Source of the DNA: Lentzea aerocolonigenes
GTDB taxonomy: Bacteria; Actinomycetota; Actinomycetes; Mycobacteriales; Pseudonocardiaceae
Direction of reading: 5' to 3'
NCBI RefSeq assembly: GCF_000974445.1
Contig: NZ_BBOJ01000005.1
Span: forward strand, 348,937 to 412,936
Length of the DNA: 64,000 nucleotides
Shown here: positions 34,771-56,921 of the stretch, one piece after another
Numbering within the stretch: position 1 is the first letter of the stretch
How the letters are laid out: every line of letters starts with the position of its first letter
Notes under the pieces: model-generated
Told to the model about the DNA's origin: nothing
Databases searched by the model: none
The model's input: the letters and a program-made list of their open reading frames with translations, nothing else
Made by a program: the position numbers and the translations under genes

Positions 34771-34885
34771 TTTGATGGCAGACGATTGCCGCCACTCCGA
34801 GCCGACGTAGTCGGCACTCGCAGCCGTGCAGTCCTCGGTACGGCCCGGAGCCGCCGCGGCCTGCGTCGCCGAAGGGAGCAAAGCC

Positions 34886-35371
34886 ATGAGCCGAACCGTC
34901 AGTTCTGGGCCGACACGTGTGCGGCTCGCCTTCTACGGACGTACCAACCACACCGGGGAGAAAGCCGGGGCAGACATGTCCCGTCAGTACCTCGCCTGCG
35001 GTGCGATAGAGGCCAAGCTCGGCGCGATGACCCAGTGGTTCTACGACGCCCCGCATGCCCTCGACGGCAGCTTCTGTCTCAGCGTCCGCGACGTCGAGTC
35101 CCGGCTCGGCGCAGCACGCGGCGACTGCCGGGCGCTCGCTGTCAGCGTTGCGGATCCGGAGCGTGAGTTCGACGCGGTCGTCTGCGCTGCGCTCGATCGA
35201 CTTCCACGGCAGCCGCGCATGCGGGATCCACTTCTGCGCGCGGCGAGCATGAGCAACGTGCCCTTCGTGTTCGCTGACGACGACCTGTCTCTGGCTCGGC
35301 AACTTGCGTCCAACGCCCTGGTCTTCTACCGACTCGGGCTCAGCTGTCCCGAATGGCCGGCGCTTCGATGA
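34886..35371 (+). CDS. Degenerate resolvase-fold protein (catalytic serine lost)
   Basis: 161 residues from ATG 34886 (gaaggga upstream). The core resembles a serine-recombinase N-terminal domain: RVRLAFYGRTN, MSRQYLACGAIEAKLG, TQWFYD, then FDAVVCAALDRLPR and PFVFADDDL. The invariant RxS serine is replaced (GRTNHTG), and no DNA-binding recombinase domain follows, so it should not cut DNA. It could pair with the integrase or act as a directionality factor. It overlaps the next gene by 4 bases and is the first gene of the integrase operon. Confidence 0.6.
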   Translation: MSRTVSSGPTRVRLAFYGRTNHTGEKAGADMSRQYLACGAIEAKLGAMTQWFYDAPHALDGSFCLSVRDVESRLGAARGDCRALAVSVADPEREFDAVVCAALDRLPRQPRMRDPLLRAASMSNVPFVFADDDLSLARQLASNALVFYRLGLSCPEWPALR

Positions 35372-35553
35372 CCCCCACGAACGACCGCTTTCCCGAACCA
35401 GTCGCTGACCCGGAGATGCGGCTGGACATTCGCATTGCTGAAGGCGCCGAAGCCGAACGGCTCCGGCTCGAACAGGCCCAGGTACTGATGGAGGTGACGC
35501 AATGGCTGGCCCGGAGGCAATCCGAGACTGGCTCAACCAACAGGGCAGCCTGA
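35368..35553 (+). CDS. Small protein upstream of integrase (excisionase candidate)
   Basis: 61 residues from ATG 35368, overlapping the previous stop (ATGA). Acidic N terminus, then one long helix (EGAEAERLRLEQAQVLMEVT). It overlaps the integrase start by 52 bases, so the three genes are tightly coupled. No HTH is evident; a role as recombination directionality factor is speculation from position only. Confidence 0.5.
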   Translation: MTPTNDRFPEPVADPEMRLDIRIAEGAEAERLRLEQAQVLMEVTQWLARRQSETGSTNRAA

Positions 35554-37478
35554 GTGCCCACGCGGGCCCGTACCGCCCCGGCTGGCGCGGCTTCGAGTCG
35601 GCTGTGGTCACAGCCGCGCCCGCCCTGATCCCCGTCGCGTTTCTCGGACGCACCTCCACCGACGACCAGCAGGACCCAGTCGGATCATTGCTGCGCCAGC
35701 TGCGCATCTCGCAGGAAGCGCTGCCTGAGGGCTGCGTCATCGTCGCGCACTTCTACGACGTCGAGTCAGGTCGCAAGGATCTCAACGCACGTGGCCGGGG
35801 CGACCGTCATGAACGGCTCGCTATCCCCATTCCGCGCGACGGTGGCATCCATGATCTGCTCACTGAAGCGGCCAGCCCTGACCGGCGCTTCCAAGCCGTC
35901 ATCTGCGAACAGATCGACCGCATCGCCCGCCGGACGTACTACGGCACACAGATCGAGCACCAACTCCAGTCGGCCAACGTCGGACTGTGGGCAGCAGACG
36001 AACCCATCCGGCTCGACACCGACATGCTCATCGACCCGACCACGGTTCTCACGCGGCGGGTCAAGCAGGGCATCGCCGAGTGGTACGCGCTGGACATGAT
36101 CAAGCGCGCACGCGACGGGTTCGAGACCCACACCGATCAGGGCTATAACGTCGGTAAAGCGTGCTACGGCTACCGCAACGTCCAGGTGCGCCTCGACAAG
36201 CCGGACCCTGGCAACGGGGGCGTCGAACACGCGGTTCGGAACCGTCAAGGCAACCGGGGCAAAGGTCGAAACGGCCCGCGGACGAAGAGCAAGCTGGTCG
36301 TCGAGCCGGTCGAGGCTGCAGTCGTCAGAAGGATCTACGACTGGCGGATTACTGAACGGCTCGGCTACGAGGCGATTGCGGACCGGCTCAACCTCGACCT
36401 CTCGACCAACCCTCCGCCCATGCCGCCGGATCCCGAACGAGCGGTTGGCCGATGGACGGGCAGTAGCGTCCGGGAGCTCCTGAACCAGCCCAAGTACACC
36501 GGCTACATGGTCTGGAACCGGCGGGCGATGAAGACTCGCAACGGCAGCCCCAACCCGATGGAGAAGTGGGTCTGGTCCGAGGCGCCCACCCACGAAAAGA
36601 TCATCGAACTGGAGGACTTCATCGCGGCCCAGCAGGTCGTCCAGCGACGCGAGCGGTCCCGCACTCAGGCGGGCGCGAACCCCCATCCGCAGACGAAGCG
36701 CACGTACCGGCTGCGGTCCTACCTGTTCTGTGAACTGTGCCACCGCCGGATGTTCGGCAAGAGTCGGCACGAGACCGCCTACTACGCCTGCGCGGCGAAA
36801 AAGGGCTACGTCCCCGAGGGGCATCCGAACAGTCTCTGGGTTCGTGAAGACGCGCTGCTATGCGGCCTGAATGACTTCCTCAGCCACCACGTGTTCGGGC
36901 TGTACAGGCAAGAGTTGCTGGCGTCCGCCATGCGAGACCTTGACGCGCGATCGGAGCAAGAACGAAACGATCGAATCGCGGCCATCAAGAAATCCATCGC
37001 GGATCTGGATGCGCGGAAGAAGCGACTGGTCCGCACCCTTGAGGTCACCGGTGACGACGACGGTGAGCCCGACCAGGAACTCATCCAGGACATCAAGAAC
37101 CGGCGTGCCGAGATCAAGGCCGAACGTGCCGAACTCGCCGCCGAGTTGACGACGCTTGAGGAGCAGGCCAACGACCAGCAGAACCCCGATCTGCTTTGCC
37201 TCCTGCCGGTCGGCAGGAGCGATCTCGAAGAACTACCGGAGGCACTCGCTCGCAAGCTGTTCGAGGCGCTCCGGCTGGAGGTGCACTACAACAAGATCGA
37301 CAACACTGCTGTCTGCAGGATCACGCTGAGCGGCGAGACCCTCCCCGCGGTCCAGCAGGCTGTGCAAGAGAGCGGGGTGGTGATCCCGTTCAAGAAGCCG
37401 ACGCGCGGAGCCAAGACGAGTTCAAACAGTGAGGGCGAGCCGTTCGACGGCTCGCCCTCACTGTTCCCATCTGCTGTG
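35502..37478 (+). CDS. Large serine recombinase (integrase); frame stays open past the attachment site
   Basis: About 659 codons up to the tRNA. ATG 35502 has ggaggt 6 nt upstream. Catalytic domain: VAFLGRTSTDDQQDP with nucleophile S52, then AVICEQIDRIARRTYYGTQ; recombinase domain: GYNVGKACYGYRNVQVRL, YDWRITERLGYEAIADRL, LLNQPKYTGYMVWNRR; zinc ribbon: YLFCELCHRRMFGKS then YYACAAKKGY; coiled coil about 480-560. The frame has no stop before 37479: it continues antisense through the tRNA and, in frame, through the adjoining transporter to 38609. The natural C terminus in the excised circle is therefore different. Recognisable integrase ends near 37410 (VIPFKKPTRG). Confidence 0.85.
37425..37465. 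terminator. Strong bidirectional terminator at the element/tRNA junction
   Basis: Perfect 18-bp stem (arm aacagtgagggcgagccg at 37425-37442, complement 37448-37465) with a 5-nt loop. It lies inside the open integrase frame, 14 bp before the tRNA 3' end, and can end transcription of both the integrase (rightward) and the tRNA (leftward). Confidence 0.85.
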
Positions 37479-37550
37479 TGCCCCCGGCAGGATTCGAACC
37501 TGCGCACCCGCCTCCGGAGGGCGGTGCTCTATCCCCTGAGCTACGGGGGC
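37479..37550 (-). tRNA. tRNA-Arg (anticodon CCG)
   Basis: 72-nt cloverleaf on the minus strand: 7-bp acceptor GCCCCCG/CGGGGGC, D arm GCTC...GAGC, anticodon stem CCGCC/GGCGG with loop CTCCGGA (anticodon CCG), 4-nt variable loop, T arm GCAGG TTCGAAT CCTGC, discriminator A; CCA is not encoded. Upstream (plus-strand 37567-37572) is a taggat -10 box about 17 bp from the mature 5' end. The 3' half faces the element, and the intact gene is restored by the insertion, as expected for a tRNA attachment site. Confidence 0.95.
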
Positions 37551-37664
37551 GCTACCAACGTGGAAGATCCTAGCGCACTCCGGCGAGCCCGTTTCACGCC
37601 TACCCCCAAGAACGGTCCGACCGTGGTGTCCGTCACCTCCGCGCCTGGTCAGAGGTGCTGCCGA

Positions 37665-37693
37665 TTGCACTCATGCGCATATCGCTATATGTT
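37665..37693 (+). promoter_or_regulatory. Sigma-70-type promoter for a leaderless efflux transcript
   Basis: TTGCAC (37665-37670), 17-bp spacer, TATGTT (37688-37693). The predicted start of transcription falls at about 37700-37701, exactly the ATG of the CDF gene, and no Shine-Dalgarno sequence is present, so the mRNA is probably leaderless. Confidence 0.6.
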
Positions 37694-37700
37694 CCTGGTC

Positions 37701-38609
37701 ATGGGTCACGGCCACGGTCATGGACACGCGTCGGGGAGCGGGCAGCACGTCGGCAAGCTCTGGATCGCGTTCGGGATCGGCGCGGCGTTCATGGTGGTCG
37801 AGTTCGTCGTCGGGTTTGCGACGTCCTCGCTCGCGCTCATCTCCGACGCCGCGCACATGCTCACCGACGTGCTCGGGGTGGGGATGGCGCTGGCCGCGAT
37901 CATGGTGGCGCGCCGGGCCAAGGCCGGGAAGAACCGCACGTTCGGCTTCTACCGGGCCGAGGTGCTGGCGGCGCTCGCCAACGCCGTGTTGTTGTTCGGC
38001 GTTGCCGGTTACGTGATCTACGAGGCGGTCGGGCGGTTCCAGGACCCGCCGGCGGTGCCTGGCTGGCCCGTTCTCATCGCCGCGTCGCTCGGGCTGGTGG
38101 CCAACCTCGTCAGTTTCGGCGTCCTGCGAGAGGGCGCGAAGGACAGCATCAACGTCAAGGGTGCCTACCTGGAGGTGCTGGCGGACCTGATCGGGTCTGT
38201 CGGTGTGCTGGTCTCGGCGTTGATCATCCTCACCACCGGGTGGCGGTACGCGGACCCGATCATGGGTGTGCTGATCGGGATCTGGGTGTTGCCGCGGACG
38301 TACGGGCTCGCCAAGAACGCCTTGCACATCCTCTTCCAGCACGCGCCGGAGCGGCTCGACGTCACGGAGATGCAGAAGGCGCTCACCGCGCTGCCTGGTG
38401 TCACGGAGGCGCACGATCTGCACGTGTGGACGCTCACCAGTGGCATGGAGGTGGCTTCGGCGCACCTCACGACTGCTGAGGACGCTGATCACGAAGGTGT
38501 GCTCAAGGCCGCGCAGTCGTTGCTGGCGACCGAGTACGGCATCGAGCACGCCACGTTGCAGGTCGAGGGCGGCTCGTCAGCGCAGCGGTGCCGGGAGCTT
38601 TCGTGGTGA
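37701..38609 (+). CDS. CDF-family (CzcD/ZnT-like) divalent cation exporter
   Basis: 302 residues from ATG 37701 (supported by the leaderless promoter; ATG 37689 is an alternative). His-rich N terminus MGHGHGHGHASG, six hydrophobic helices, metal site HxxxD in SLALISDAAHMLTD (TM2) and a second acidic site in YLEVLADLIGS (TM5), then a cytoplasmic ferredoxin-like domain (VTEAHDLHVWTLTSGMEVAS). It exports Zn/Co/Cd-type ions by proton antiport. It is chromosomal, just right of the tRNA-Arg, and in the integrated state is in frame with the upstream integrase ORF, an accident of insertion. Confidence 0.9.
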   Translation: MGHGHGHGHASGSGQHVGKLWIAFGIGAAFMVVEFVVGFATSSLALISDAAHMLTDVLGVGMALAAIMVARRAKAGKNRTFGFYRAEVLAALANAVLLFGVAGYVIYEAVGRFQDPPAVPGWPVLIAASLGLVANLVSFGVLREGAKDSINVKGAYLEVLADLIGSVGVLVSALIILTTGWRYADPIMGVLIGIWVLPRTYGLAKNALHILFQHAPERLDVTEMQKALTALPGVTEAHDLHVWTLTSGMEVASAHLTTAEDADHEGVLKAAQSLLATEYGIEHATLQVEGGSSAQRCRELSW

Positions 38610-56641: not shown

Positions 56642-56921
56642 TGGCCGTTCGGCGGCGCAGAACACGGTGCACAGTCTGATGGACCGCCACCAACAACATG
56701 GAGCCGTATGTGGCCGAACGGGCTCACCTTGCGCCGAACGGCGTATCAGGGAGGTTGAGCGGTTGTGACATCAGCCACCCTCAAGGCCGTGCGGGAGCTC
56801 TGGGAACAACCGCGTTTTTGCACGTGTTGAAGGGTCTGGCAAACTAAACGGTCGAGTCCGGCTCCGGTTCACCCGCTCACAAACAGGGACCCGGCGGCCA
56901 TCCTCTGAAAGGGACAAGATC

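Follow-up and report, generated by a model that had tools for sequence, protein, structure and literature searches.

A serine integrase gene of a Lentzea element that probably spans its own attachment site and exchanges its C terminus on integration

The analysis concerns a window of 64,000 nucleotides, the whole stretch of Lentzea aerocolonigenes DNA under study (contig NZ_BBOJ01000005.1). Its G+C content is 68% and long spurious ORFs are plentiful. On the forward strand a single ORF of 1035 codons starts with an ATG at 35502, passes through an integrase, an RNA hairpin, the antisense strand of a tRNA-Arg(CCG) gene and a CDF cation-efflux gene, and ends at 38609 (Table 1). This stop-free frame had been pointed out in a preliminary description made from the letters of the DNA, and the ORF was present as given there. 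Pfam models matched the translated ORF in two parts, i.e. Resolvase, Recombinase and Zn_ribbon_recom at aa 122-452 (the last with 20.0 bits, below its 25.3 cut-off) and Cation_efflux and ZT_dimer at aa 753-1022. R4 and S6 of what we take to be the catalytic serine motif of serine recombinases were invariant across 28 aligned homologs, and the protein itself reads FLGRTS there. An attP with inverted arms around a short core common to attB was found as well. By its domains, its serine motif and this att-site layout the gene at 35502 classifies as a large serine recombinase (LSR).

Table 1. Features of the integrase locus (positions in the window).
Feature	Position	Strand	Remark
Large serine integrase body	35502..37412	+	Includes catalytic, recombinase, zinc-ribbon and coiled-coil parts; alignment conserved from about 35640
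Spacer without stop, in frame, predicted to encode a linker	37413..37477	+	Same stretch modelled as disordered in a homolog
Strong RNA hairpin lying in the coding spacer and reaching into the first part of attP	37425..37465	+	From folding energy
P arm of attP, CTGTTCCCATCTGCTGTGTG	37461..37480	+	Exact inverted repeat of the P' arm at attL, C51:290085
attR core, GTGCCCCCGGCAGG	37478..37491		Common to attL at C51:290070; empty site in relative G017
tRNA-Arg(CCG), integration target	37478..37550	-	Rfam 37479-37550; intact after integration
Putative replacement C terminus of the integrase, integrated state	37492..38609	+	Made up of antisense tRNA and intergenic DNA, with the CDF gene included by accident
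CDF cation-efflux gene	37689..38609	+	Start at 37689 or 37701, read from sequence; chromosomal, element-independent

The preliminary description had placed the integrase stop codon of the circular form on the far side of the attachment core, and had proposed that attL be sought and the frame be read across the rejoined attP. attL was located at C51:290070, 59 kb before the start of the window and 96,344 bp from attR. The two sites share a 14-bp core with perfect 20-bp inverted arms. Long direct repeats marking att sites were not found within the window; the core is short, at 14 bp, and attL is not part of the window. The predicted empty site was contiguous in the relative G017 (1632 bp at 86.6%), which confirms the edges of the element. 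Between attL and attR a TraC/TraG-type ATPase, PrgI and a TraD-like coupling protein are encoded; judged by these conjugation genes, the 96,344-bp element is an integrative conjugative element. Its circular form was reconstructed from the attL and attR sequences rather than seen, because phages and plasmids gave only distant matches (25.7-46.2% identity) and viral contigs none, so that close free-form relatives were not at hand. The predicted attP connects window position 37491 with C51:290084. When the integrase frame was followed across this junction, it continued in phase for 49 more codons past the core and then ended at a TGA, as had been anticipated. The 49-residue tail contains GRLVVEHRVSLD. 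The predicted C-terminal stretches of the integrase are ...PRQGTQQMGTAPTRGFLRGRLVVEHRVSLD... in the circle and ...PRQDSNLRTRLRRAVLYPLSYGG... when integrated.

Openness of the frame ahead of the tRNA was compared among 54 homologs, namely the integrases with a tRNA behind them, the present one included. A stop before the tRNA occurred in 1/54 in the integrase frame and in 40/54 and 31/54 in the other two frames. Within the last 60 nt before the tRNA, stops were seen in 1, 18 and 25 of the 54 for the three frames, and in 0, 9 and 10 of 21 when one homolog per cluster at 60% identity was retained. Judged by these counts, the stop-free stretch from integrase to tRNA exceeds chance. The preliminary description had named two observations that would speak against it: homologous integrases that stop well before the tRNA, and a sequencing error that creates the readthrough. 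Only the single homolog of 54 stops ahead of the tRNA, and a sequencing error was rejected because independent homologs (53/54) are equally open.

The distal part of the ORF behaved differently from the proximal part. The CDF gene adjoins the tRNA in 19/23 relatives from the genus. The antisense-tRNA frame was open over the same 1125 nt in 4/7 compared relatives, and three of these four (L026, L028 and L131) are genomes without an integrase match at this tRNA. Whether this frame is in phase with the CDF start could be checked in L028 and L131, whereas the start pattern was not found in L020, L022 and L026; in L011 and L013 the CDF gene is in a different phase from the antisense-tRNA frame. From these comparisons, the extension of the frame over the entire CDF gene is no more than chance. 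A functional integrase-transporter fusion was rejected, since the frame from antisense tRNA to CDF is open without the element too; the chimeric transporter protein is likewise a by-product of the DNA at the target site and does not belong to the system. As the sequence preceding the CDF start appears, by eye, conserved in the printed relatives, the CDF gene seems to have its own start. The hairpin in the spacer (-38.6 kcal/mol, z -7.9, equally stable shuffles 0/200) had been described as a terminator that alone prevents a chimeric protein. The hairpin itself held up. Its role as a terminator is unproven, for it has no T tract and the terminator scan did not call it; with that, and with an apparent start of the CDF gene itself, the protective role found no support.

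Conservation of the tail beyond attP was studied in elements for which attL could be found. Among the 16 tRNA-integrated elements searched (own included) attL was resolved for nine, and no convincing attL was obtained for the remaining seven (G047, G050, G073, G061, G060, G065 and the Leu element of G014). A motif of the form L-x-aliphatic-x-x-x-hydrophobic-x-aliphatic, 14-17 residues past the core, was in frame with the element's own integrase in 7/9 resolved elements, at Arg, Leu and Glu tRNAs and in differing core registers, and was present in 0/54 integrated-form tails; the pattern was composed after inspection of the tails. The 27 listed homolog loci without a tRNA behind them, of which L053, L062 and L050/L172 were looked at in detail, carry the motif only in L053 and L062. 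L053 has a cis junction with in-frame readthrough. In 3/3 further genomes, with the pairs on different contigs, integrase and tail share the same core register. The pattern was not universal. In Amycolatopsis bartoniae (L056/L137) the tail is out of frame, the sequence as read having a stop 10 residues past the core and the motif one frame away; Streptosporangium G046 has a 58-residue readthrough without the motif. Reading on from the best attL candidate of Glycomyces G060, whose arm score of 24 stayed below the background maximum of 26, would give 42 residues that lack the motif, and the integrase spacer of G014 reads in another frame. No usable tRNA was found in the examined stretch of G068 (two places), G066 and G005. 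For G011 and G006 the Leu sites were picked by a 13-bp core and the shared tail, their arm score of 14 not exceeding background, and the class I copy in G017 (L122) has a decayed core with one C missing.

Nucleotide variation in the class I tails points to selection on a protein. In frame, pN/pS was 0.157/0.516 over 14 codons and 0.191/0.443 over 21 codons; both of the remaining sense frames gave values above 1, and the in-phase antisense frame was nearly as low (0.165/0.476). Variation occurs mostly at third codon positions (excess p=0.00015). In pairwise comparisons of tails, G021 and G017 differ by 9 synonymous and 4 nonsynonymous changed codons, and G011 and G006 by 6 and 3. The class II tails, many of which are orphan remnants, show a weaker signal (p=0.012 and 0.037). 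On sequence grounds, integration removes a conserved C-terminal piece from the integrase, and the earlier proposal that integration changes the C terminus was borne out to this extent.

The attP-like form of the homolog L062 was modelled with AlphaFold. A linker with pLDDT of about 30 was followed by a strand at 586-594 with pLDDT 66-71, a prediction for one tail-carrying sequence in a model with pTM 0.39. The integrated-form control L068 showed no structure after 561 (pLDDT 24-32). In fold the L062 model matches solved structures of the phiC31, Bxb1 and Listeria serine integrases; among the matches listed, the full-length serine integrases stop at model residues 539-547, and the attP-coded strand is uncovered by all of them. 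A PDB sequence search gave no match. The extra strand of the circular form is predicted to dock on the C-terminal sheet, pairing with the last strand of the body.

Taken together, the integrase coding sequence most probably spans attP, and integration would swap its C terminus (probability about 0.85). In the circle, translation of the integrase would carry on past the core into the element's left end, adding the 49 residues with the strand motif. attP and the tRNA core would encode a flexible linker, so any core register should work if it is open. When the element inserts at the 3' end of tRNA-Arg, the tail would be left at attL and the translated antisense tRNA would take its place; at this locus the new frame happens to remain open through the CDF gene. 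The catalytic body would stay unbroken throughout. The strong hairpin between body and tail might end transcription before the tail is reached.

A frame that is open merely because the DNA is rich in G+C, with integrase and CDF in phase by luck and no real C terminus beyond the body, was considered. The composition of the window and its many spurious ORFs suit such an account, and the part from antisense tRNA to CDF is indeed chance. For the part from integrase to attP it is already contradicted by the frequent closure of the other two frames among the 54 homologs, and by a tail that is conserved as protein across different core registers; as an account of the whole it is very improbable. Equally improbable is the idea that the conserved stretch past the core is, instead of the integrase C terminus, a small gene of its own with its ATG in the P' arm (MGTAPTRGF...), or a site acting as DNA. 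In class I tails the arm does contain an ATG in phase, and the 13 orphan tail copies scanned (further copies exist) had 0 integrase matches in the 2.6 kb upstream. However, the G004 tail has AAG at the position of the ATG, class II and Leu tails lie in other registers without that start, and the tail follows the register of its own integrase in 7/9 resolved pairs. The third-position excess likewise favours coding.

A coupling of transcription is less improbable than these, though still unlikely. Here the integrase message of the circle would continue into the left-end genes, integration would sever the link, and the tail would be a mere coding bridge. Compatible with this, the tail stop overlaps the next start codon in L053, L159 and L137, and a DUF2637-like gene (18.7 bits, below the Pfam cut-off of 22.8) lies at the left end here, with genes after L053 and L137 that are similar by eye. 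However, a tail serving only as a bridge would have no need of a strand motif conserved 14-17 residues past the core, the next listed ORF in the present element begins about 220 bp past the tail stop, and the hairpin ahead of attP would hinder such a transcript.

The swap has about an even chance of making the integrase behave differently, in stability, activity or direction, when free and when integrated, by analogy with phage Mx8. A more tentative proposal, less likely than not, makes the attP-coded strand an inbuilt switch of direction. The circle's enzyme, with the strand, would be able to carry out attP x attB or would favour it, and integration would erase the strand and leave an enzyme no longer integrating, or able to excise.

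Phage Mx8 is the closest precedent. The integrase of this Myxococcus phage (and of Mx9) is described as having attP inside its coding sequence, so that integration supplies a new 3' end, after which the enzyme is reportedly not inactivated and changes in specificity (PMC6070905). Islander, a 2014 island database kept to tyrosine integrases with the statement that serine ones were not known at tRNA genes, lists the Mx8 integrase as extending across attP (PMC4383910). As in Mx8, the integrase frame here would cross attP to a stop beyond, an end that integration replaces; Mx8 has an unrelated tyrosine enzyme, whereas here a many-member family of serine integrases with tRNA targets carries a conserved, detachable tail. 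The suicidal tyrosine integrases of the archaeal SSV type, as characterized in PMC8371274, likewise have the att site within the integrase gene, in a compact integrase-att cassette, and the gene is split on integration. In these the catalytic C-terminal part is severed, whereas here the catalytic body is whole and the tail alone is exchanged: all the recombinase domains found are on the attR side. Among actinobacterial conjugative elements, AICEs with a serine recombinase at a tRNA gene, such as eight Mycobacterium recombinases at a tRNA-Leu gene, were called rare (PMC3218068); they resemble the present element in host group and target, and an integrase frame across attP is not mentioned in the passages compared. 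The Ralstonia phage phiRSM also uses a small serine recombinase at a tRNA 3' end (tRNA-Ser, 13-nt core), with its attP given as lying between ORF14 and ORF15, outside the recombinase gene; in phiRSS0 it is ORF13, not the recombinase gene, that is said to lose its C terminus on integration (PMC3816273). A gene-internal recombination site is shared with a few bacterial and archaeal viruses, but with an unrelated type of enzyme. A serine integrase with attP inside its own gene was not found in the open-licence PMC literature searched.

Whether a serine integrase integrates or excises is usually ascribed to a separate directionality factor. In this family of actinobacterial integrases, whose targets are tRNA genes for Arg, Leu and Glu, recombination itself would rewrite the C terminus beside the last strand of the body. 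For annotation this implies that integrated copies bear false C termini of antisense tRNA, so that an integrase cloned from the chromosome would lack its native end. If both forms behave differently, they would constitute a natural one-gene state switch, useful for studies of directionality and for tool building. Should the direction switch prove true, the recombination state of the element would be written into the C terminus of its enzyme, and the att site would double as a flexible protein linker.

The frame 35502-38609 is uninterrupted over 1035 codons. It opens with a large serine integrase (Pfam Resolvase, Recombinase and a weak Zn_ribbon_recom) and closes with the neighbouring cation-efflux (CDF) transporter (Cation_efflux, ZT_dimer), so that the single frame reported in the preliminary description, running across an antisense tRNA, was confirmed. 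Each of the other 23 genus genomes had matches to the tRNA and the CDF gene, 19 of them as a single alignment starting at 37467-37479. Because the alignments begin there, the DNA to the left is presumably inserted. When the junction was searched against the own genome, the contig of the window (which covers C51:348937-412936) proved to hold two inverted matches, each exact over 23 bp (C51:267161 and 290082, 119 and 96 kb off). Both read GGTGCCCCCGGCAGG followed by GCACACAGCAGATGGGAACAG, i.e. the tRNA 3' end joined to an exact inverted repeat of the arm that precedes the tRNA in the window. With attL, the left end that was to be looked for, located in this way, the element measures 96,344 bp from attL to attR. 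Its outer flanks joined in silico correspond to a contiguous sequence in the relative G017 (1632 bp, 86.6% identity, spanning the junction), which, judged by this alignment, is the empty site. By its gene content the element is an integrative conjugative element.

Features of the element, the window and the tails
Feature	Position	Remarks
attL	C51:290070	59 kb ahead of the window; nearer of the two inverted matches; core GTGCCCCCGGCAGG
Hairpin	37425-37465	between integrase and CDF parts; highly stable, -38.6 kcal/mol, z -7.9
tRNA-Arg(CCG)	37478-37550	between integrase and CDF parts; strand opposite to frame 35502-38609
Conjugation genes		between element ends; TraC/TraG-type ATPase, PrgI protein, TraD-like coupling protein
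C5 methylase gene		inside element, upstream of integrase
DUF2637-like gene		left end of element; under Pfam cut-off
35-bp unit in tandem copies	1-235	window start
Actinobacterial L31 ribosomal protein leader	56858-56899	Rfam match
Tail motif, own element (Arg)		LVVEHRVSL
Tail motif, G006 Arg element		LVLETSFVV
Tail motif, Actinomadura macra (Glu)		LTIPSRVPI
Tail motifs, Leu elements		G021 LQVSATMEV; G017 LQVSATVEV; G011 LQISATVPI; G006 LQISAAVPI

Once the circle is rejoined, the frame of the integrase crosses the core and continues as GTQQMGTAPTRGFLRGRLVVEHRVSLDRSSGPVSAQLAGDDEPMPGSRA up to a TGA, giving a tail of 49 residues; the stop codon thus lies beyond the core, as had been proposed. The integrase coding sequence spans attP, and integration exchanges the end of the protein. 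Related attL-type sites within the genus gave the same peptide pattern, and L053 is a natural attP-like junction in which the C-terminal half of an integrase continues in frame into the tail. The stop of the tail overlaps the next start codon in L053 (2254-2257, TGA/ATG), L159 and L137, an arrangement that suggests translational coupling in the circle. In the alignment of tails with the second group included (11 rows) the core is read as PRQ in the first group (class I) and as PPAG in the second (class II), i.e. in different registers. Immediately ahead of the LVV part the DNA of the two groups differs by a gap of one base, so that in either group this part is again in frame with the group's own integrase. 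If there were only a DNA site, such a shift would be absent. A decayed copy in G017 (L122) has lost one C from the core. Another attL-type site, with a conserved tail of its own (L029:17150, C51:267149), lies 23 kb to the left of the true attL and is probably what remains of an earlier element from this family; G017, whose tRNA is otherwise empty, carries a comparable site some 19.4 kb from that tRNA.

Homologs were matched 20 times in 12 of the 24 genus genomes (own counted) and at 64 loci from named genomes, 84 loci in total. Loci were kept if the integrase match extended into the C-terminal region and a tRNA lay no more than 260 nt away (54, own included); 27 lacked such a tRNA and in three the match did not extend far enough (30 set aside). 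A stop ahead of the tRNA was present in the integrase's own frame in one of the 54 (L111), and in the other frames in 40 and 31. Restricted to the last 60 nt these counts were 1, 18 and 25, and with one homolog per 60%-identity cluster 0, 9 and 10 of 21. With respect to the antisense tRNA, each of the three registers was found. Therefore, the integrase gene runs across the core in 53 of the 54 homologs, alike at Arg, Leu and Glu tRNAs, and the early stops for which the preliminary description had wanted homologs inspected are confined to a single case.

Of 16 elements integrated at tRNAs, the own one among them, nine yielded an attL that was accepted. In seven of these, the integrase's own frame encodes L-x-[VIL]-x-x-x-[VFMI]-x-[VIL] at 14-17 residues beyond the core; this pattern, devised after the tails were seen, occurred in none of the 54 integrated-form tails. 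The Leu attL sites of G011 and G006 were picked by a 13-bp core and the shared tail, their arm score being below background. The remaining two of the nine lack it: in Streptosporangium G046, 58 residues are read past the core and the pattern is absent; in Amycolatopsis bartoniae the tail is out of frame, with a stop after 10 residues and the motif in the next frame. The best attL candidate of Glycomyces G060, one of the other seven elements, would give 42 residues lacking the pattern. Core registers of integrase and tail agreed in Prauserella, Actinokineospora and Amycolatopsis arida (3/3), where the two may belong to different elements since they lie on separate contigs. A 45-bp tRNA-Arg 3' fragment was seen in Streptosporangium (L214:18592) 19 kb from the intact tRNA; such fragments typically point to another kind of integration at this tRNA, by a tyrosine-type enzyme.

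Class I tails (n=10, beyond the arm) gave in frame a pN of 0.157 and a pS of 0.516 over 14 codons, and 0.191 and 0.443 over 21. pN exceeded pS in the two other sense frames; the in-phase antisense frame gave 0.165/0.476, so that this test by itself leaves the strand unsettled. Differences were in excess at third positions (284/493, p=0.00015, column permutation; p=0.0011 with seven sequences after removal of two near-identical and one decayed). The effect was weaker in class II (21 copies, many of them orphan remnants; p=0.012 over 17 codons, 0.037 over 14). Among Leu tails, changed codons were nine synonymous and four nonsynonymous for G021 versus G017, and six and three for G011 versus G006. 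In class I, coding constraint acts on the native end of the integrase, and this end is conserved from one target class to another. Several orphan class II tails lie on the same strand about 1-22 kb apart (L200-L204 in G002 and G009; L205 in Saccharothrix deserti, G069), with no integrase match upstream, and some adjoin short tandem repeats ending in the core-like GGACCTCGGGCGGGA.

A second attP-like junction, L062 of Actinomadura macra, was folded as a single protein by AlphaFold2 (mean pLDDT 75.9, pTM 0.39). Residues 341-550 had block means of 69-91, with the last body strand at 534-542, followed by a disordered linker (561-580, pLDDT about 30) and a strand at 586-594 (66-71). The integrated-form control L068, 77% identical to L062 where aligned (mean pLDDT 74.3, pTM 0.38), was disordered from 561 to its end (24-32) and its last body strand covered just 535-539. 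Among solved structures, those of serine integrases from phiC31, Bxb1, Listeria and other sources match the L062 body to about residue 545, the extra strand lying outside these matches. According to the models the body amounts to a whole serine integrase and attP would code for a flexible linker, which explains why the core register is immaterial. The strand coded past attP probably packs against the C-terminal sheet, in the circle only; confidence in it is moderate, as one tail-bearing sequence was modelled.

The preliminary description had also envisaged a chimeric protein, averted by the terminator alone. The frame does continue into the CDF gene, but in four of seven relatives (L022, L026, L028, L131; not L011, L013, L020) the antisense frame likewise stays open over 1125 nt of tRNA and CDF. 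These include G002 and G017, in which the frame shares the phase of the CDF start although it has no integrase ahead of it. The sequence ahead of that start appears conserved by eye among the aligned relatives. Together this indicates that the fusion is an accident of the target locus.

An attP within an integrase gene is already known: the authors of Islander (2014; PMC4383910) state that the integrases of Mx8 and SSV extend across attP, and that serine integrases were then not known at tRNA genes. Ghinet et al. (2011; PMC3218068) describe eight serine recombinases of Mycobacterium that use a tRNA-Leu gene, which they term rare. A search of open-licence papers found none describing a gene of a serine integrase that extends over attP. 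Phage Mx8, whose integrase end is swapped on integration, is the nearest precedent; the enzyme is described as active after the swap with altered specificity (PMC6070905).

The free-form end may matter for integrase function, and its loss by integration would then set another state. Modulation seems more likely than suicide of the integrase because the catalytic body stays whole. In phiC31 the directionality factor reportedly binds the zinc domain of the integrase; the strand, if docked near this domain, could influence that control point in cis. Directly ahead of the integrase, the frame 34826-35371 looks like the N terminus of a serine recombinase when inspected by eye (RLAFYGRTNHTGEK), but another residue stands where the catalytic serine is expected; a Pfam search of it was without match, and it is a possible accessory or directionality factor. 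Long hairpins of unrelated sequence directly precede attP in the coding spacer of the window, L055 (4789-4828) and L056 (4689-4729); those of L035, L054 and L060 are weaker. Integration may have a second effect, on operon coupling: since the tail stop overlaps the next start in L053, L159 and L137, integration would also sever the integrase message from the left-end genes, and the hairpin before attP could limit both effects.
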